DNA of 54,964 nt from Salinadaptatus halalkaliphilus (GTDB taxonomy: Archaea > Halobacteriota > Halobacteria > Halobacteriales > Natrialbaceae). Positions 25,941-42,679 of this stretch are shown in pieces (position 1 is the stretch's first letter; each line of letters begins with the position of its first letter). Below the pieces are notes generated by a model. That model saw only the letters and a list, made by a program, of their open reading frames with translations. It had not been told where the DNA came from and ran no database searches. The position numbers were made by a program, and so were the translations under genes. The stretch is from contig NZ_RBZW01000025.1 of assembly GCF_006543045.1 (NCBI RefSeq), positions 1 through 54,964 on the forward strand. The letters run 5' to 3'.

Positions 25941-26033
25941 GACCTGATTTCCCGTTAGACCCGCGATGATAGCTCTTTGTCGATGTCTCGTGGTATCTCC
26001 TTTGAATCGGGCTATTGTGGGCTAACACAGAGA

Positions 26034-26056
26034 ATTTACACCCGCGATCGAACCCC
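26034..26056 (+). other. Origin recognition box E (partial)
   Basis: It reads TTTACACCCGCGATCGAACC, keeping the TTACACCCGCGA half without the GTGTGT half. It lies just before the orc1/cdc6 TATA-like box, so binding by the initiator could repress its own gene. Confidence 0.6.
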
Positions 26057-26072
26057 ATACATTTATTTCAGT
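26057..26072 (+). promoter_or_regulatory. TATA-like element of orc1/cdc6
   Basis: CATACATTTATTTCAG lies about 30-40 bases before ATG 26099, right after partial ORB E. Confidence 0.45.
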
Positions 26073-26098
26073 CTGGTCTGAAGGCACCGGGTACTGCA

Positions 26099-27358
26099 AT
26101 GTCCGCCAACGACGATCGTGATCCTCTCTTTCGGTACGACGATCCGGTCTTTGCCGACGAGCGATTGCTCGAGATCACACATCTTCCCGGTCCGGACCGG
26201 ATCGTCGGACGCGACGAGCAAATGCAACGAGTTGCGGACGCCCTGAACCCCGCGATATTCGGGAGCGAACCGAACCATCTGTTTATCTTCGGGAAGACGG
26301 GTACCGGCAAGTCGCTCATCTCGCGGTCGGTTACAAAACGCGTCATCTCGGAGGCCCAAAAGGACGACGTGACCGTCAAGTACGCGTTCATCGACTGCGG
26401 CGAGCAAAACACCGAAGCGTCGATCATCAAGACGATCGCCCAAATCGTCAACGAACCCGACGACAGCGGCGTCTCGATCCCTGACCGTGGACTCGGAACG
26501 GGCGACTACTACAAACGACTCTGGCAGTCCGTCGACCGCTGTACCGACGTGACCATCGTCATCTTGGACGAGATCGACATGCTCGAGGATGACGAAGTGC
26601 TGCGAAAACTCTCGCGTGCGGGCGAGAACCGTCGAATATCTGACTCGAGCATCGGCATCATCGGTATCTCGAACAAGATCGACTTCCCAGATCATCTCTC
26701 CGAACGTGTCAAATCGAGTCTCTCTCGAGACGAACTCGTCTTTTCGCCCTACGACGCCAACCAACTCGTCGAAATCCTCGAGAAACGACGCGACGCGTTT
26801 CACGATGGAGTGCTTTCGGACGACGTGATTCCGCTCACCGCAGCGCTTGCCGCCCAGGAACACGGTGATGCACGCAAGGCGATCGACATTCTCCGCAACG
26901 CAGGTCGAATCGCGAAGAAACGAACCGATACGCGCGTGACCGCCGATCACGTCCGCGACGCAAAAGAAAAGACCGAGGCCGACCGGTTCAACGAGCTGAT
27001 CGAGGGCTCGCCCCAGCAGGCGAAGGCGATCCTCTACGCGCTGACGCTTCTGACCGAAAACTCGAGTGAGAAGGAGTTCCCGACGAAGATCATCTACAAC
27101 CAGTACAAGGCGATCGCCCGTCAACTCGAGTTCGACGTGCTTTCCGAACGGCGCGTCCAGGAGATCTTACAGGAGCAAAACTTCCTCAACGTGATCCAGT
27201 CCGAGCGGGAAGGCCGTGGACGCGGACGCGGTGCACATGCCAAACACCGACTCCTCGAGAACCCATCGATCGTCAAGAAGGTACTGCTTCGCGACTCTCG
27301 TCTCGCGGTCCTCGAGGGTGACGGCGAGGGGCCCAGTGACACGCCAACCGACCGATAA
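26099..27358 (+). CDS. orc1/cdc6: Orc1/Cdc6 replication initiator
   Basis: A 419-residue AAA+ origin-binding protein. ITHLPGPDRIVGRDEQM leads into the ATPase. Walker A is GKTGTGKS (65-72), Walker B is VILDEID (154-160), and sensor 1 is in GIIGISNKIDF (about 184-194). Arg in EHGDARKAIDILR is sensor 2. A C-terminal winged helix covers about 310-400 (YNQYKAIARQLEFDVLSERR and EREGRGRGRGAHAKHRLLE). ATG 26099 is preferred; the upstream frame to 26015 overlaps origin box E and is not protein-like. Haloarchaea carry several orc1/cdc6 genes and this one is tied to its own ORB set. Confidence 0.95.
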   Translation: MSANDDRDPLFRYDDPVFADERLLEITHLPGPDRIVGRDEQMQRVADALNPAIFGSEPNHLFIFGKTGTGKSLISRSVTKRVISEAQKDDVTVKYAFIDCGEQNTEASIIKTIAQIVNEPDDSGVSIPDRGLGTGDYYKRLWQSVDRCTDVTIVILDEIDMLEDDEVLRKLSRAGENRRISDSSIGIIGISNKIDFPDHLSERVKSSLSRDELVFSPYDANQLVEILEKRRDAFHDGVLSDDVIPLTAALAAQEHGDARKAIDILRNAGRIAKKRTDTRVTADHVRDAKEKTEADRFNELIEGSPQQAKAILYALTLLTENSSEKEFPTKIIYNQYKAIARQLEFDVLSERRVQEILQEQNFLNVIQSEREGRGRGRGAHAKHRLLENPSIVKKVLLRDSRLAVLEGDGEGPSDTPTDR

Positions 27359-31352: not shown

Positions 31353-32513
31353 TCAAAACAGCGCGTCGAGTTCGCCGCCCGTGTCGACGAGCGACGTGAA
31401 CTCCTCGTCGGCGTTGGCCTGCAAGTTTTCGGTGCGATCCTGCGCGTCGATCGCAACTTGCTGGAGTTTCTCGATGCGAGGCACGTCGGTGACACCCGAC
31501 AACAGCACGATCGCACCGACCTCGTCGCGGTGGGGCATCGGGTAGTCGCCGCCGCGAATCTCCATGCTGCCCGTCTCGTCCTCGAGCCACTGGCGACCGC
31601 GTTCGACACCTTTCCGATTCAGTTCCTCCGGTGGGCCAGTCGCGACGACGAGGCCGCGATCGGCACTCGAGACGTCACAGGGGAGGGTGAGTCGGCCGAG
31701 GGTAGACTTACGTACGAGACTCGTCATGCGATTTGTCGCCGTCCCCTCGTCGAATCCGTCCTCCTCTTTGAACGACGAGAGAAGCCCGTTGCCCGTGGTA
31801 TCGACGGTTTCGCTGGCGTAGCCGATCGTGGAGATTCCGTCGTTGAGCGTGTTGATTATCTCCGAGGAGTCGACGACGCTTTCGGCGACGTGATCGCCGT
31901 TGCCGACTTCGCCCGCAGCGAACAGGAGGCCGAATCGCTCGACGATCTCGCGGTTGATTCGATCGTAGCCGTCGGCGACCGATTCCCCGGCGCTGCGCCA
32001 GACATCGTTGTCGAAGACGAGCAGGTTGTCGACCTCGCGGACGAACGTCTGGAACGAGCGGGCGGCGTTGAGCGTATAGATCCCGCCCTCGTCCATCGCC
32101 GGGAGGATGCCCAGCCCGAAGACCGGTTGGCTGTAGATTTTCTTCAGGTGCGTCGCGAGGACGGGCGCGCCGCCCGAACCGGTGCCACCGCCCATGCCAG
32201 CGATGATAAGGAAGGCGTCGATCTCGTGGACCGGAATCCGATCGATCGCCCCCTGGATTTCGTCGATGTCTTCCTCGGTTACCGTCGCGCCGAGTTCGTT
32301 GTCGGCACCGACGCCGTGTCCTTTCACGCGTGCCTGTCCGATGAGTACGCGATTCGCCCGTGGTACGTTTTCAAGTCCCTGAATGTCAGTCGTCGCCGAG
32401 TTGACAGCGATCGCTGATTCGATAAAGCCGCCACCGATCGCATCGTCGTACGCCAGGAACTCGTCGACGATCTTCCCGCCTGCCTGACCGAAGCCGATTA
32501 GTGCGAGTTTCAT
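31353..32513 (-). CDS. cetZ: Tubulin-like protein CetZ
   Basis: A 386-residue member of the CetZ family of the FtsZ/tubulin superfamily, involved in haloarchaeal cell shape and motility. It has MKLALIGFGQAGGKIVDEF, a nucleotide loop VKGHGVGADNELGA, and the tubulin signature GGGTGSG (108-114). EVDNLLVFDNDVWRSAGESV carries the T5 region, and VVDSSEIINTLNDGISTIGYA the T7-like region with catalytic acids. The C-terminal half runs RLTLPCDVSSADRGLVVATG to SGVTDVPRIEKLQQ and an acidic tail. The start MKLALIGF is preferred over 32546. It stands alone, with a 348-base region upstream. Confidence 0.95.
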   Translation of the reverse strand: MKLALIGFGQAGGKIVDEFLAYDDAIGGGFIESAIAVNSATTDIQGLENVPRANRVLIGQARVKGHGVGADNELGATVTEEDIDEIQGAIDRIPVHEIDAFLIIAGMGGGTGSGGAPVLATHLKKIYSQPVFGLGILPAMDEGGIYTLNAARSFQTFVREVDNLLVFDNDVWRSAGESVADGYDRINREIVERFGLLFAAGEVGNGDHVAESVVDSSEIINTLNDGISTIGYASETVDTTGNGLLSSFKEEDGFDEGTATNRMTSLVRKSTLGRLTLPCDVSSADRGLVVATGPPEELNRKGVERGRQWLEDETGSMEIRGGDYPMPHRDEVGAIVLLSGVTDVPRIEKLQQVAIDAQDRTENLQANADEEFTSLVDTGGELDALF

Positions 32514-32861
32514 GGTTGTCTCTCGTGGGCTCGCCCCGCCGAACACAAGCGGTCGCTAGCGATCGTTCGTCGACCGCTAGAGATCGTTCGAGTTCGATTA
32601 CTGTGGGGGCAGGCACCACGTACCATTTGTCGGCTATCGGAGCCATTGTTATGGCCAGCATACGATCGAAGAAACCACTGTCTTCGAATAACGACATTCG
32701 CTTGAGAGCTATAGTCGCTGGTTAACGAGTGTGTACTCGACTACTACTTTCAGACAGTGAGAACGACGAGTTTCCGCGAACGCAGTCGTCGATACCACCC
32801 GAACGGACCCATCTTCCGTTGACGTAAGTCCTATACTCTGTGATAGCTTACCGGCCCACAC
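32514..32861. other. Intergenic region with a 16-bp direct repeat
   Basis: No convincing gene. CGCTAGCGATCGTTCG (32554-32569) and CGCTAGAGATCGTTCG (32575-32590) are direct repeats 21 bases apart, 41-77 bases upstream of cetZ. They are candidates for regulator binding. The right half presumably contains the promoter of the binding-protein gene, with CTATACTCTG near 32831. Confidence 0.55.
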
Positions 32862-34604
32862 ATGGACGAGGGTGCGTCGCGGGTTAGTCGGCGAACGATA
32901 CTTGCAGGTGCCGGGAGCCTCGGCGCCAGTACCCTTGCTGGCTGTTCGGAACAGTTCTGGTCGCGAGCCGAAGACACCGGCCCGGAACAGGTCGAATTGA
33001 CGATCAAGACCCTCCCGGCTGACGACGACGCGGTCGCTGCCAAACTCATGAGTCAGCTCCGGGAGAATTATATCGCAGCCGGCATCGACGCTACGCACGA
33101 ACCGCTGGGGAGAGCCGATCTCTATCGCGATATATTTCTCGAGGGCGACTACGATGTCTTCGTTATTCGCCATCCTGGCCTCAAAGAGTTCGATGCGCTT
33201 CGTGGCTTGCTTCACTCCTCGTTTACCACCGAGCGAGGGTGGCAGAACCCGTTTCGATTCTCCGACGTGACTATCGACGACCTCCTCGAGTCACAACAAT
33301 CCAGCAACGCCGATCGAGACGAGTCGTTGGCGGAGCTGTTCGAATTTCTCGAGGAAACAGCACCGTATACGACTATCGCGTATCCCCACCAGGTCGGTGG
33401 CGTTCGGCCGGATCTCGACGTTTCGATCTCACCGCGGCACCCGCTCGAGTACGTCGACGTGTTGGCTACCGAACGCGCTGACGGCCCTCGAGACGGACCG
33501 ATAGCGATCGGCGTCTACGGCGAAGGGTTGACCAACCGGTTCAACCCGATCGTCGTCGATCAAAATTCGATTCCTGGACTGCTCGGACTGGTGTACGATC
33601 CACTCGCTCGGCGAGTTCCATCCGAGGACGATGTCGTTCCGTGGCTCGCCGAGTCCGTGTCCTGGGACGAAACCGACGACACGCGAGCGACGGTTACCCT
33701 ACACGAAGGCACTCGCTGGCACGACGGTGCCGAACTCGATGCCGACGATGTCGTCTTTACGATGGAGTTTCTCGAAGATACGTCACTCGGTGCCATCGAC
33801 GGGAGCGTTCCGGCACCGAGATATCGCGCTCGATTGGCCCTTCTCGAAGGGGTGACTCGTATCGACGAGCGGACGGTCGAATTGTCGTTTGGATCGACCC
33901 GTCGATCGGCTGCGGCCCGCGTACTGACGATACCGCTGTTGCCCGAACACATCTGGGAACCACGAAGCGAGGTCGTCGCCGAACACCGAACTGAAGCGGT
34001 GCTTGCAGACAACGAGGAACCGATCGGCGCTGGCCTCTTTCGGTTCGAGTCGGTCACCGCTGACTCGCTCGAGCTTGCGCCGTTCGACGATCACGTCCTT
34101 CGCGATCCGGTAGCCCAACCCGAGATCCTCGACGGGGAGTCGGCGTTTACGGGCATCCACTTTCGGATCGATCCGAACGTCGGTGCGATGATCGACGCGT
34201 TGCTCGATGGTGAGATCGATCTGACCGCGAGCAACATCCCGCCATCGGAACTCGATACGTTCCGTGAGGCGTCTGGGGCCACCATCGTATCTACACAGAG
34301 CCGAGCCTTCTACATGATCGGCTACAACTATCACCACTCGTCGCTCGTCAACCCCCACTTTCGGCGAATCCTCTCGCGGCTGATCGACCGCGAACACGTC
34401 GTCTCGGAACTGTTCGACGGACTCGCCGAGCCAGCAATGTCACGGAACTCACTCGTCGGGATCACCGACGATGCGTGGGACGACAATCGAGCATCGTCGG
34501 TGACAACCTTCCCCGGAACCGACGGCGAGATCGCCACACAGGAGGTTCGATCCCTCTTCGAAGATGCCGGCTATCAGTACGAAAACGACGCGCTGATCGA
34601 GTAA
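32862..34604 (+). CDS. Substrate-binding lipoprotein, SBP_bac_5 type, circularly permuted
   Basis: A 580-residue protein with a Tat signal (SRRTILAGAGSLGAST) and lipobox LAGC. Residues about 44-165 (LTIKTLPADDDAVAAKLMSQ, then DYDVFVIRHPG, NPFRF, TIDDLLESQ, EFLEETAPYTTIAYP) look like the C-terminal lobe of family 5 binding proteins. Residues about 190-580 then give the normal N-terminal order: NRFNPIVVDQNSIPGLLGLV, LAESVSWDE, HEGTRWHDGAELDADDVVFT, IGAGLFRFE, MIDALLDGEIDLTA and PHFRRILSRLIDREHVVSEL. The chain stops with the helix that usually precedes the moved part. No permease or ATPase is adjacent; a PAP2 gene follows. Confidence 0.85.
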   Translation: MDEGASRVSRRTILAGAGSLGASTLAGCSEQFWSRAEDTGPEQVELTIKTLPADDDAVAAKLMSQLRENYIAAGIDATHEPLGRADLYRDIFLEGDYDVFVIRHPGLKEFDALRGLLHSSFTTERGWQNPFRFSDVTIDDLLESQQSSNADRDESLAELFEFLEETAPYTTIAYPHQVGGVRPDLDVSISPRHPLEYVDVLATERADGPRDGPIAIGVYGEGLTNRFNPIVVDQNSIPGLLGLVYDPLARRVPSEDDVVPWLAESVSWDETDDTRATVTLHEGTRWHDGAELDADDVVFTMEFLEDTSLGAIDGSVPAPRYRARLALLEGVTRIDERTVELSFGSTRRSAAARVLTIPLLPEHIWEPRSEVVAEHRTEAVLADNEEPIGAGLFRFESVTADSLELAPFDDHVLRDPVAQPEILDGESAFTGIHFRIDPNVGAMIDALLDGEIDLTASNIPPSELDTFREASGATIVSTQSRAFYMIGYNYHHSSLVNPHFRRILSRLIDREHVVSELFDGLAEPAMSRNSLVGITDDAWDDNRASSVTTFPGTDGEIATQEVRSLFEDAGYQYENDALIE

Positions 34605-34734: not shown

Positions 34735-35652
34735 ATGTCTCTCGTTGCCGTCGCCCTCGAGCTCGCCCTCATCGTCGCGACGATGCTCGTCACGGGAGCA
34801 TTAGCCATGATCGGCCCGCGTCGACTCGTCGCTTCGCTCCGGGAGTTCCGATGGCGACTCGAGGTGTGTGCCCTTCCGGTGGCCATGCTTGCAGTCGTGC
34901 TCGTGATTCGGTGGTCGACGGTAGACATCACGATGCGTCTCGAGCGGCGCGTCATCGGCAACAACATCACGCCGCTTTTGTTCGGCATGGAACGGGCACT
35001 GTTGCCGGAAAACCCCGTCATCGTCTTGCAGTCGTTCCAGTCGCCGGAGCTGACGTCGTTTTTCGTGTTCGTCTACATCTATGGCTACGCATTCTTGCTC
35101 CTGTTTCCGTTTCTCGCCTACTTTGTGCTCGATTCGATGGACGATTTCTCGACGCTCATTCTCGCGTTTACGGCGAACTACGCGATTGGATTACTCTTCT
35201 ACATTCTCTTTATCGCCTACGGCCCTCGTAACTTCGATCCGATGCTGTTCGAGGGGCTGCTGTACGATGCGTTTCCCCAATCGCGGATGCTCACGAATCG
35301 GGTCAACCAGAACACGAACGTTTTCCCGTCGCTTCACACGTCGCTCTCGATGACCGTCTTCTTCCTCGCGTGGCTCACCCGAGCGAAGTATCCGCTTTGG
35401 GTGCCGATCTCCGGCGTTCTCGCCGTGAGCGTCGCGGCATCGACGATGTATCTCGGCATTCACTGGTTTTCCGATGTCGTCGCCGGCACCGCACTCGCAG
35501 CGATAAGCGTCTACATCGGGCGAAACTACACGGCCAACGGACTCCTCGAGATGGGGCGACGATATCTCGGTCCACACGTGGGCGGACTCACCGGCTACGT
35601 CGCCGATCGACTGTCCGCAATCAACCGATTCGTCCGCGACCGTCGCTCCTGA
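34735..35652 (+). CDS. PAP2-family membrane phosphatase/phosphotransferase
   Basis: A 305-residue membrane protein with about seven helices and the PAP2 active-site set. YGPRNFDP is the region around motif C1. FPSLHTSLSM (about 199-208) carries the motif C2 His, and GIHWFSDVVAG (about 242-252) the C3 His/Asp. The long loop before C2 and overall length resemble inositol phosphoceramide synthase-like (AUR1) PAP2 proteins rather than soluble phosphatases. In archaea these may act on polyprenyl or phospholipid phosphates; the substrate is not known. It lies 130 bases after the binding-protein gene on the same strand. Confidence 0.85.
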   Translation: MSLVAVALELALIVATMLVTGALAMIGPRRLVASLREFRWRLEVCALPVAMLAVVLVIRWSTVDITMRLERRVIGNNITPLLFGMERALLPENPVIVLQSFQSPELTSFFVFVYIYGYAFLLLFPFLAYFVLDSMDDFSTLILAFTANYAIGLLFYILFIAYGPRNFDPMLFEGLLYDAFPQSRMLTNRVNQNTNVFPSLHTSLSMTVFFLAWLTRAKYPLWVPISGVLAVSVAASTMYLGIHWFSDVVAGTALAAISVYIGRNYTANGLLEMGRRYLGPHVGGLTGYVADRLSAINRFVRDRRS

Positions 35653-35793
35653 TATCGGTACGACCGACCGTCCGACACCTCGAGACCACCCGTTCTGTTT
35701 GTCTGGACCACAGTGTCCGTTTGCGCGTCATACGAGCGCACGGCTCGATCGGTTACGTATCAGGTCTTTGCCCCTCGAGTCCCTCCCTCGAGT

Positions 35794-37206
35794 ATGGTCA
35801 TCCACTGGCACCGCCGCGATCTCCGTCCAGCCGACAACCTCGGTCTCGACCGTGCGCGATCGGTCGACGAGCCGATCGTCGGACTGTTCGTCCTCGATCC
35901 CGCCGTCTTAGAACACTCCTCGCCGGTTCGGACGGCGTGTCTGCTCGAGGGGCTGTCGGCTCTTCGGGCGTGGTATCGCGACCGCGGAAGTGATCTCCTC
36001 GTTCGACGGGGGACGCCGAGTGACGTTCTCACGACGGTCGCAACCGAAACAGGTTCGTCGACCGTCGTCTGGAACGCGGACTACAGCGGGCTCGCACAAC
36101 GACGGGACGCCGCAGTCAGATCGGCGCTCGAGGGGGACGGTATCGAGGTCGAGACGGTCCACGACGGACTGTTGTCCGAACCCGGGTCGATCACGACGAA
36201 CGCGGGCGAACACTATTCGGTATTTTCCTACTTCTGGAAGAAGTGGCGCGATCGCGAGAAACGCGATCCGGTCGACCCGCCGGCGGCCAAAGCGCTCGCT
36301 ACTGAATCGATCGAGGGCTGCCGTTCGGAACGCCCCTCGATCACGGACCTCGGGGTCGACCCGCCGGAAGCGAACCGACCGACGGTGACACCCGAGGGGG
36401 CTCGAGATCGGGTGGCGTCGTTTTGTGGCGGACCGATCTACCGATACGAGACCGATCGCGAGTATCCCGCGCGGAGTGCCACGTCGCGACTCTCCGTCCA
36501 TCTAAAGTGGGGGACGATCGGCCTCCGAGAGCTGTACGCCGCCACCGAACGAGCGGCCACAGACGCTCCTAACGAAGCCGCTCGAGAGAACGTCAGCGCG
36601 TTCCAGCGCCAACTCGCGTTCAGGGAGTTTTACGCACACGTCCTGGCGTTCAATCCCGAAACGGTGTCCGAGAATTTCACCGACTATCCAAACGAGATCG
36701 AGTGGCGCGACGAACGAGCCGAACTCGAGGCCTGGCAGCGCGGCCGGACCGGATATCCGATCGTCGACGCCGGGATGCGACAGCTCCGGACGGAAGCCTG
36801 GATGCACAATCGGGTGCGAATGCTGGTCGCGTCGTTTCTGACCAAGGATCTGTTGATCGATTGGCGACGCGGCTACGAGTGGTTCCGGCGACACCTCGCG
36901 GATCACGATACCGCAAACGATGTCGGTGGCTGGCAGTGGGCGGCCTCGACTGGGACGGATGCACAGCCGTATTTCCGGGTGTTCAATCCGATGAAGCAGG
37001 GCCGGGAGTACGACCCGGACGCAGAATACATCACGACCTACGTTCCGGAACTGGCCGCGGTCGATCCGGAACAGATCCACGAGTGGCACGAACTGTCGAC
37101 GGACGAACGGAATCGACTGGCGCCGTCGTATCCGGGACCGATCGTCGACCACGCCGAGCGACGGGAGCTGGCAATCGAGCGATTCGAACAGGCGAAAAAC
37201 GGGTAA
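35794..37206 (+). CDS. phr2: Deoxyribodipyrimidine photolyase (class I CPD)
   Basis: A 470-residue light-driven DNA repair flavoprotein. The N-terminal alpha/beta antenna domain starts MVIHWHRRDLRPADNLGLDR. The FAD-binding C-terminal domain has SVHLKWGTIGLREL (about 229-242), FQRQLAFREFYAH (about 272-284), GYPIVDAGMRQL (about 324-335), WMHNRVRMLVASFLTKDLLI and WQWAASTGTDAQPYFRVFNP with the Trp/Asp FAD contacts. It matches haloarchaeal Phr2, the CPD photolyase. ATG 35794 is used; the ORF extends upstream to 35713 without family similarity. A palindromic element begins 8 bases after the stop. Confidence 0.93.
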   Translation: MVIHWHRRDLRPADNLGLDRARSVDEPIVGLFVLDPAVLEHSSPVRTACLLEGLSALRAWYRDRGSDLLVRRGTPSDVLTTVATETGSSTVVWNADYSGLAQRRDAAVRSALEGDGIEVETVHDGLLSEPGSITTNAGEHYSVFSYFWKKWRDREKRDPVDPPAAKALATESIEGCRSERPSITDLGVDPPEANRPTVTPEGARDRVASFCGGPIYRYETDREYPARSATSRLSVHLKWGTIGLRELYAATERAATDAPNEAARENVSAFQRQLAFREFYAHVLAFNPETVSENFTDYPNEIEWRDERAELEAWQRGRTGYPIVDAGMRQLRTEAWMHNRVRMLVASFLTKDLLIDWRRGYEWFRRHLADHDTANDVGGWQWAASTGTDAQPYFRVFNPMKQGREYDPDAEYITTYVPELAAVDPEQIHEWHELSTDERNRLAPSYPGPIVDHAERRELAIERFEQAKNG

Positions 37207-40427: not shown

Positions 40428-41609
40428 CTACTCGGCTTCCGTCGCTGGCGGTCCGGAGTCGGGGTCGGCGTGGCCGGTCACGTCGTGTGTCAGTGCGACA
40501 CCGGTCGCTCGCTCGAAGAGGTGGACTCTCGAGCGGTCGAGGACGACCTCGACGGATTCGCCCTCGCGGATGTCCGTATCCGGGGGGAGACTCATCAACA
40601 ACTGTCCGGCTGCCGCTGCCGGTTCCTCTGCCATCGACCGTTGCACGTCGTCGGCGAGCAGGAGGTAGACGAAAATCTCGTCACCCATCGGCTCGAGGAC
40701 ATCGGTCTGGGCGTCGATCGGCGCGGTCGGCTCGCTCACTGCCTGGGCCTCCGCGAGATGGACATCCTCCGGGCGGACGCCGACGGTCACCTCGTCGCCG
40801 ACTGCGGCATCCGCAACGATGTCGGGGCCGAGGTCGATGTCGAAGTTCGGCGTCTCGACCCGATCTTCGTGTAGCGTCCCCTCGAGGAAGTTCATCGAGG
40901 GCGAGCCGATGAATCCCGCGACGAACCGATTGGTCGGTTCATTGTAACAGGTAAGCGGCGGCGAGATCTGCTGGAGTTTTCCCTCGTTCAAGATGGCGAT
41001 CCGATCGGACATCGTCATCGCTTCCGCCTGATCGTGGGTCACGTAGATGATCGTCGTCTCGAGTTCGCGGTGCAATCGCTGGAGTTCGGTGCGCATGTGC
41101 ACCCGAAGCTTCGCGTCGAGATTCGCAAGCGGTTCGTCCATCAGGAAGACATCGGGGTTCCGGACGATCGCCCGAGCGATCGCGACACGCTGGCGCTGAC
41201 CGCCCGAGAGCTCGTCGGGCATCCGCTCTAGCATCCCCTCGAGCTGGACGATATCGGCGGCCTGCTCGACGCGTCGGCGGATCTCCTCGTCGTCGTAGGT
41301 TCGCAGCCGAAGGCCAAAGGAGATGTTGTCGAAGACGTCCATGTGGGGAAACAGCGCGATGTTCTGAAAGACCATCGCGATGCCCCGATCCTTGGGGGCG
41401 AGGTCGGTGACGTCGTCGTCGCCGATGTAGACGCAGCCTTCTGTAGGTCTGGTGAGCCCGGCCACGGTCTCCATCGTCGTCGACTTGCCACAGCCCGAGG
41501 GGCCGACGAAGGTGACGAACTCGCCGTCCTCGATCGCCATGCTCACGTCGTCGACCGCGGTGACATCTTCGTAGCGTTTCGTGACGTTCTCGAGTCGTAC
41601 TCGTGCCAT
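40428..41609 (-). CDS. Sugar ABC transporter ATPase, MsmK/UgpC-like
   Basis: A 393-residue ATPase for the sugar importer. Walker A is GPSGCGKST (about 35-43), Q-loop VFQNIALFPHM, signature [14 protein letters not shown] (about 134-147), Walker B VFLMDEPLANLD (about 154-165), and switch His in IIYVTHDQAEAMTM. A C-terminal TOBE/OB extension (about 235-393) includes VTVGVRPEDVHLAE and MGDEIFVYLLLADD, typical of MsmK/UgpC/MalK. The start is two bases after the stop of the upstream permease. It should serve the MalF/MalG-like pair encoded upstream. Confidence 0.95.
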   Translation of the reverse strand: MARVRLENVTKRYEDVTAVDDVSMAIEDGEFVTFVGPSGCGKSTTMETVAGLTRPTEGCVYIGDDDVTDLAPKDRGIAMVFQNIALFPHMDVFDNISFGLRLRTYDDEEIRRRVEQAADIVQLEGMLERMPDELSGGQRQRVAIARAIVRNPDVFLMDEPLANLDAKLRVHMRTELQRLHRELETTIIYVTHDQAEAMTMSDRIAILNEGKLQQISPPLTCYNEPTNRFVAGFIGSPSMNFLEGTLHEDRVETPNFDIDLGPDIVADAAVGDEVTVGVRPEDVHLAEAQAVSEPTAPIDAQTDVLEPMGDEIFVYLLLADDVQRSMAEEPAAAAGQLLMSLPPDTDIREGESVEVVLDRSRVHLFERATGVALTHDVTGHADPDSGPPATEAE

Positions 41610-41611
41610 AT

Positions 41612-42679
41612 TTATTCTTTGAGTGCGCCTGCGGTCAGTCCACTCACGATCTTCTCCTGGGCGACGATTACGAGGACCGCGACCGGGATGACGCCGATGA
41701 TACTCGAGGCAGCCATCAGGTGGTACATCACCTCGTACTGCCCCTGATACCCGAGAATGCCCTCGAGAATCGGCGCCCAGTTCTCCGGCTGGCCGTCGGT
41801 CATCAAGAAAGAGAAGAAGAATTCGTTGTAGACGGCGATAAACGTCAACACGCCCGCGGTCGCGACGCCGGGTGCAGAAAGCGGGATGATGACCCGAAAC
41901 AGCGCGCCCAATCTCGTGGTGCCCTCGACGCGGGCGGCGTCCTCGAGTCCGTCCGGAATCTGGCTGTAGAACGTCGTCAGGATGAAGATGGCGAGCGGCA
42001 TGAAGATCGCCGACAGCGGCAACACCATCGCCCCCGGCGTGTTGTACAGCGTCCCGTCGCCGGTGATCGGCTCGAGCACGAAAAATGACGTGTTGAACAG
42101 GTCGTTGAGCGGGATGAAGAAGGCGGCCGGCGGGAAAAAGGAGATGACCAGCACGAGCAACATCAGGGGAACCCGGCCCGGAAACTCGAGGCGGCCGAAG
42201 GCGTAGCCCGCCAGGCTTCCGATGATCAAGACGACGATCGTCGAGGCCGTCGCGATGACGAAGCTGTTGAACATGTACCAGTGAAACGGGATCACCTGAA
42301 AGACCTCGACGAACGCGCCGGGGTTGAAGCCGTTCGGCGTGAGGATGATGTCTTGCTGTTGGCCCTCGGGCGTCAGCGCGACCATGAGCAGCCAGTAGAA
42401 CGGAAACAGCGTCGTGAGCAGAAAGAAGATCGTCGCCGTGTAGAACATCGCCCGATACGCGCGTTCGGGGCGCTGGATCGAACGCGCGACCCACCGCTGG
42501 AGTGGCCCCCGGTCGAGTTCGGTGTCCTCGTCCTCGAGCAGGACGCCGCTGCGCTGGGCGTCGTGACCGCCGTCGGTTCGACCCTGAAGTGGCGTAGGAG
42601 GATTGTCCACGCGGTTCACGGCTTCGCCGCTCACTTGGTCCGAGGATTCACTGGGTTCGTCCTCGAATTCCTCGCTCAT
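41612..42679 (-). CDS. Carbohydrate ABC permease, MalG/UgpE-like
   Basis: A 355-residue inner-membrane permease. An acidic cytosolic N-terminus of about 75 residues precedes six helices. The EAA loop reads DAARVEGTTRLGALFRVIIP (about 266-285), contacting the ATPase. SFFPPAAFFIPLNDLF and FNSFVIATASTIVVLIIGSL are other conserved membrane parts. Its start overlaps the stop of the first permease by one base (TGATG). Sugar identity cannot be read from the permease; a glucose or related importer is suggested by the surrounding genes. Confidence 0.92.
   Translation of the reverse strand: MSEEFEDEPSESSDQVSGEAVNRVDNPPTPLQGRTDGGHDAQRSGVLLEDEDTELDRGPLQRWVARSIQRPERAYRAMFYTATIFFLLTTLFPFYWLLMVALTPEGQQQDIILTPNGFNPGAFVEVFQVIPFHWYMFNSFVIATASTIVVLIIGSLAGYAFGRLEFPGRVPLMLLVLVISFFPPAAFFIPLNDLFNTSFFVLEPITGDGTLYNTPGAMVLPLSAIFMPLAIFILTTFYSQIPDGLEDAARVEGTTRLGALFRVIIPLSAPGVATAGVLTFIAVYNEFFFSFLMTDGQPENWAPILEGILGYQGQYEVMYHLMAASSIIGVIPVAVLVIVAQEKIVSGLTAGALKE

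Follow-up and report, generated by a model that had tools for sequence, protein, structure and literature searches.

The window analysed here is a stretch of 54,964 nucleotides from Salinadaptatus halalkaliphilus, and it contains a gene for a solute-binding protein (SBP) that, judged by sequence, is a member of family 5 (SBP_bac_5, cluster C) and, by topology, a variant of it. The Pfam profile PF00496 matched this protein with 128.8 bits against a cut-off of 32.4. Its first 28 residues are taken, from general knowledge of haloarchaeal export, to be a Tat/lipobox signal. An earlier note on this DNA had placed a Tat signal at the start of the protein, and the alignment agrees, with Cys28 invariant across 24 homologues and Arg10 and Arg11 kept in at least 90%.

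The SBP and the PAP2_3 membrane enzyme encoded after it are flanked by a divergent CetZ gene and a photolyase gene, and an Orc1/Cdc6-like gene was recognised by reading elsewhere in the window (Table 1). The CetZ-SBP-PAP2 gene order is kept in Natrialbaceae. About 5 kb from the SBP, the opposite strand encodes an ABC ATPase of the sugar type (MalK-like by reading), and what appears to be permease sequence lies upstream of it. The earlier note had held that the locus is free of permease and ATPase genes; this stands for family 5, to which that ATPase is unrelated, but not for ABC genes of the sugar type.

Table 1. Features assigned in the window, with the basis of each assignment
Feature	Position	Strand	Basis
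Orc1/Cdc6-like gene	26015..27358		reading
CetZ, divergent	31353..32546		
Circularly permuted family-5 solute-binding lipoprotein, 580 aa	32862..34604	+	ORF, translation, Pfam PF00496, permutation tests
Tat-type lipoprotein signal, residues 1-28 (RR at 10-11, lipobox Cys28)	32862..32945	+	homologue alignment
Moved segment, residues 43-205 (canonical C-terminal segment, from the strand after the 'AGY' helix up to the natural C-terminus)	32988..33476	+	hhalign, AppA match
Core, residues 224-575 (canonical N-terminal and middle part, usual order)	33531..34586	+	hhalign, Pfam, AppA
PAP2_3 membrane enzyme, 305 aa (putative catalytic His201, His243, Asp247)	34735..35652	+	PF14378, homologue alignment, fold match
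Photolyase	35713..37206		
Sugar-type ABC ATPase, MalK-like	40428..42494	-	reading

Segment order in the window SBP

The protein had been described in the earlier note as circularly permuted, with what is normally its C-terminal lobe segment in front. The SBP_bac_5 match covers residues 258-576 only, corresponding to profile positions 2-283 of 368; what it lacks, the last quarter of the profile, sits in front. When the N-terminal segment was compared alone with Pfam and NCBIfam no family matched, so that the segment is invisible to a single-sequence search; it is detected by profiles. In a rotation test, residues 43-210 were moved to the end of the protein, and the same segment in shuffled form served as the control. 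The rotated protein scored 142.8 bits with the Pfam profile covered to position 345, and the shuffled control scored 123.9 bits with coverage to 286. Rotation likewise raised the Pfam scores of the other three permuted SBPs of this genome, from 141.0 bits (native) to 155.7 for the protein on contig C9, from 148.5 (native) to 159.4 for that on C28, and from 167.4 (shuffled) to 185.1 for that on C42.

A profile of the segment built from 77 homologues was then aligned by hhalign with seven canonical SBPs from the same genome. Residues 45-188 were placed on canonical columns 357-498 with a probability of 97.6% and an E-value of 4e-12. For residues 224-575 the match was to columns 54-353 (probability 99.9%, E 6.5e-36). 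Both placements are in keeping with the expectation that the two parts would align with SBP_bac_5-type proteins. The two column ranges adjoin without overlap and other placements score about zero, which bears out the earlier claim that all the expected pieces are present once. A search with the family profile against AppA (1xoc; hmmsearch) gave the same arrangement, with profile positions 228-542 matching AppA residues 35-318 and positions 24-186 matching residues 340-499. The core ends with the helix EVRSLFEDAGY, and the protein thus stops, as had been described, at the helix that usually precedes the moved segment.

An AlphaFold model of the window SBP (mean pLDDT 76.8, pTM 0.77) superposed through residues 207-580 on AppA residues 17-355 (Z 20.7, rmsd 4.4, 330 aligned residues; sequential aligner, core only). 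Across the same residues the model also matched NikZ and AccA with Z of about 20. Foldseek and VIA-align follow chain order, and the superposition therefore speaks for the core and not for the moved segment (residues 43-205). No permuted family-5 order was seen in solved structures, the best matches among those listed all lying in the core.

Together, the Pfam rotation against the shuffled control, the profile-profile alignment and the AppA alignment concur, and on these sequence comparisons the segments of the window SBP are in circularly permuted order, with the C-terminal segment first and each part occurring once. The cut lies in the loop after the 'AGY' helix, and the old termini are joined. 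This order is kept over the full length of the protein across Halobacteria. It could be argued that the N-terminal segment was instead acquired by fusion from another gene and merely resembles a C-lobe segment: its identity is low (15% in the hhalign comparison), and the same caveat was raised about the permuted SBP TpMglB-2 (PMC4990184). However, the segment fits precisely the canonical columns that the core lacks, with no overlap and no remainder, it matches AppA separately, and the AGx helix travels with it in a second permutation type described below; fusion is regarded as extremely improbable.

Distribution and origins of permuted family-5 SBPs

The window SBP is matched at E 1e-10 in 227 of 292 Halobacteria genomes, and in 191 of these strongly (E < 1e-25, a threshold chosen after a gap was seen between about 7e-21 and 2e-30). 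The suggestion that the protein belongs to a lineage-wide haloarchaeal family is therefore confirmed by full-length relatives throughout Halobacteria, and the family extends beyond the haloarchaea. Among plasmid records, 38 were matched by a query spanning the junction, and in 37 the match took in 80% or more of the query; these long matches come from haloarchaea or from Alphaproteobacteria (Microvirga, Nitratireductor, Neorhizobium, Roseomonas, Ketogulonicigenium and Maritalea). A different class of the same phylum of archaea has one further permuted family-5 SBP, which carries a PGF-CTERM anchor at its C-terminus (L125:7730-9472). Permuted family-5 SBPs carry plain annotation as ABC transporter proteins.

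Across all loci, SBPs were classed according to whether the core or the tail profile came first, which gave 82 distinct permuted proteins in loci long enough for their context to be judged. PAP2 genes lie near 59 of these and ABC genes near 17, and none has both nearby. Included among the 17 ABC-operon proteins are three from Alphaproteobacteria, encoded on plasmids at the head of ABC operons (L110, L112 and L114), and two from the window genome, in which four of the 11 family-5 SBPs are permuted. Besides the window gene these are an SBP at C9:7.8 kb, followed by its own PAP2_3 gene; one at C28:29 kb (L106:9115-10833), followed directly by two permeases and two ATPases; and one at C42:107 kb (L107:6977-8626), also followed by two permeases and two ATPases. 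The occurrence of two permuted SBPs of this genome in complete dpp-type ABC operons indicates that permutation is compatible with ordinary import, and the operon context of L106 makes a part in import probable for permuted SBPs. The view that such an order is by itself a sign of a role outside transport, as had been suggested for the window protein, was rejected in view of the 17 proteins in ABC operons; a loss of transport fits the PAP2-linked clade only.

Two cut sites were distinguished. In most permuted SBPs the cut follows the 'AGY' helix and lies near DppA residue 372. In a second type, comprising the C42 protein (L107) and L139:7858-9504, the cut lies before this helix, which is now N-terminal; both of these proteins head complete dpp-type operons. 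Trees were built from sequences rotated to canonical order, by quick searches and with long branches. In these, the first-type proteins form one clade (SH-aLRT 97-98) and the second-type pair groups with a canonical haloarchaeal SBP (SH-aLRT 95-96). A single origin for all permuted SBPs was rejected (p-AU 0.0096); one origin became acceptable once either L125, whose position in the tree is uncertain, or the second-type pair was omitted (p-AU 0.149 and 0.122, respectively). As the rejection vanishes in either case, a repeated origin of the permuted order is favoured by the trees, not proved.

Natural circular permutation of an SBP is already known from cluster B. TpMglB-2 of Treponema pallidum is a membrane-tethered cluster B sugar SBP, classed as 'Type Ic / Cluster Bc', in which the first three strands of the N-lobe have moved to the C-terminus, and it has been proposed to act in transport or chemoreception (PMC4990184). 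The window SBP is like it in being permuted and tethered and differs in belonging to family 5 and in its cut site. No report of natural permutation in cluster C or family-5 SBPs was found in the open-access literature. Permutation as an adaptation to tethering was an idea raised for TpMglB-2 (PMC4990184); it is weakened by the three Alphaproteobacterial proteins, in which no lipobox is evident.

Pairing with the PAP2_3 enzyme

Within the main permuted clade, the window SBP falls in a branch supported by an SH-aLRT of 100, whose neighbours in the tree are ABC-linked permuted SBPs. Members of this PAP2 clade have a PAP2_3 gene directly downstream on the same strand. That a PAP2 enzyme follows the window gene had been remarked in the earlier note, and the survey revealed a coupling stronger than was claimed: both partners occur in 190 of 292 haloarchaeal genomes and neither in 101, one genome has the SBP only and none has the PAP2 only, counts that are not 292 independent observations because the genomes are related. 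In 41 pairs read from genome tables, both matches have the same orientation and their ends are separated by 12-94 bases. A PAP2 gene is present in 51 of the 55 loci of the clade; in the remaining four (L059, L084, L085 and L086) none adjoins the SBP, and each of their genomes has one or more PAP2 matches. The most frequent genuine neighbour after PAP2, a mechanosensitive channel, occurs at 11 of 38 loci, origin-linked Natrialbaceae loci being left out of that count. The linkage of SBP and PAP2 thus outlasts wholesale change of the neighbourhood, and the coupling is strong; the co-occurrence shows a functional linkage, without giving its direction. No ABC genes were found beside PAP2-clade SBPs in the loci examined, and neighbour clustering gave no constant third gene, with no kinase or transducer recognised. 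The open-access literature yielded nothing on haloarchaeal SBP-PAP2 pairs.

Several loci have further features. Tandem SBP-PAP2-SBP-PAP2 arrays occur at four Natrialbaceae loci (L014, L018, L068 and L069). At seven others (L063, L065, L066, L085, L086, L087 and L113) the SBP has an arylsulfotransferase gene nearby, together with one for a large multi-spanning membrane protein, with PAP2 adjacent in five of the seven, and Haloferax gibbonsii L146 has sugar-nucleotide-type genes and an aryl-sulfate sulfotransferase. The arylsulfotransferase and multi-spanning protein are in keeping with envelope work.

The enzyme of the window matches PF14378 with 61.2 bits against a cut-off of 27 (E 1.5e-16) and contains the motifs FPSLHTS and STMYLGIHWFSD. 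Its residues His201, His243 and Asp247 are kept in every one of 76 homologues. In Foldseek comparisons, which were weak (best E 1.1e-3), the nearest structures to the model were Aur1-Kei1, LpxE, another IPC synthase and a PAP2-type phosphatidylglycerophosphatase, all of which act on membrane lipids by transferring phosphate groups or cleaving them off. The predicted structure points to an Aur1/IPC-synthase fold, a resemblance of fold only.

On the side of the SBP, the sequence motifs GWQNPF and DTSLG/PAPRYRG are conserved specifically in the clade and suggest a specific ligand site. Cluster C proteins such as AppA (1XOC), DppA, OppA and NikA share with the window SBP their sequence family, their character as exported binding proteins and probably their two-lobed fold, whereas the window SBP has permuted segments and no adjoining ABC partner. 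In DppA, R383 and D436 form salt bridges to the dipeptide (PMC12136057). These residues are not kept in the PAP2 clade, where one of 28 proteins has the Arg and two have the Asp; this is weak evidence on the ligand since most canonical members in the set are without them too. A reading of an anionic ligand from the DppA peptide-site residues was dropped, as canonical members in the set also vary there.

Candidate role of the SBP-PAP2 pair

We infer, at a probability of roughly 0.6, that the permuted flytrap lipoprotein is an extracellular ligand-binding or regulatory subunit of a PAP2 lipid phosphatase or phosphotransferase. The active sites of PAP2 lipid phosphatases mostly face outward. The two proteins would work together as a unit at the outer membrane face, the lipoprotein being placed there by its signal and the enzyme by this usual orientation. 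The flytrap may bind a small ligand outside the cell, which could be a head group, a signal, or a glycan or phosphate-bearing fragment, and it would either pass this to the PAP2 active site or switch the enzyme on or off. The enzyme would then dephosphorylate a membrane lipid or lipid-linked precursor, or transfer a head group. Permutation would have been inherited from transport-type ancestors and would not itself be the new function; through it the lipid anchor, otherwise on the N-lobe, would come to sit on the opposite lobe.

This proposal draws on two precedents. The Aur1-Kei1 IPC synthase resembles the pair in being a PAP2-type phosphotransferase of the membrane that needs a second subunit; it differs in being a eukaryotic sphingolipid enzyme, and Kei1, a membrane protein, is not known to be an SBP. 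Kei1 is an essential component of the Aur1 enzyme (PMC10333220). LpqW, a mycobacterial lipoprotein built on an SBP scaffold, regulates the synthesis of PIM, lipomannan and LAM (PMC12421883 and PMC3229680, citing Marland 2006), and so provides a case in which such a scaffold is tied to the synthesis of envelope lipid glycans. The window SBP is likened to it by analogy of function; LpqW belongs to another organism with PIM/LM/LAM partner enzymes, and permutation is not reported for it in PMC12421883 or PMC3229680.

The SBP might still act in transport, delivering its ligand to an ABC permease encoded elsewhere after PAP2 has dephosphorylated the nutrient outside the cell, as a scavenging pair. 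An SBP can serve an unlinked permease, haloarchaeal genomes hold several family-5 ABC operons, and the nearest permuted relatives are operon-linked. Against this, the near-perfect pairing of the clade is with PAP2, ABC genes are missing beside its SBPs, and PAP2_3/Aur1-type enzymes usually act on lipids within the membrane; such a scavenging role is considered unlikely. Sensing, the example of a non-transport role given in the earlier note, would also suit the clade-specific motifs: in a sensor pair the flytrap would read an outside signal, with PAP2 as an accessory enzyme and signalling through an unlinked partner. This is judged distinctly unlikely, given that even the commonest third neighbour, the mechanosensitive channel, is far from constant and that neither a kinase nor a transducer was recognised. 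Finally, the gene order could be frozen by descent without functional coupling, since in Natrialbaceae the pair lies in a conserved CetZ-photolyase neighbourhood near an Orc1 gene. Outside that family, however, the neighbours change and the pair persists, and the presence of the two genes is coupled as well as their order, which leaves descent alone highly improbable.

A fuller form of the subunit proposal is put forward tentatively, at somewhat less than even odds. It holds that across Halobacteria the pair is a two-part surface enzyme in which the permuted flytrap, as one subunit, would either gate an Aur1-like lipid phosphotransferase in response to ligand or present substrate to it, and that cluster C permutation had at least two origins.

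Permuted family-5 SBPs constitute a natural experiment on permutation and on change of the anchoring lobe in flytrap proteins. The near-complete co-occurrence of SBP and PAP2 reveals an unstudied envelope enzyme system in most of the sampled Halobacteria genomes, and the pairing offers a direct, testable function for a protein that is automatically annotated as part of an importer.
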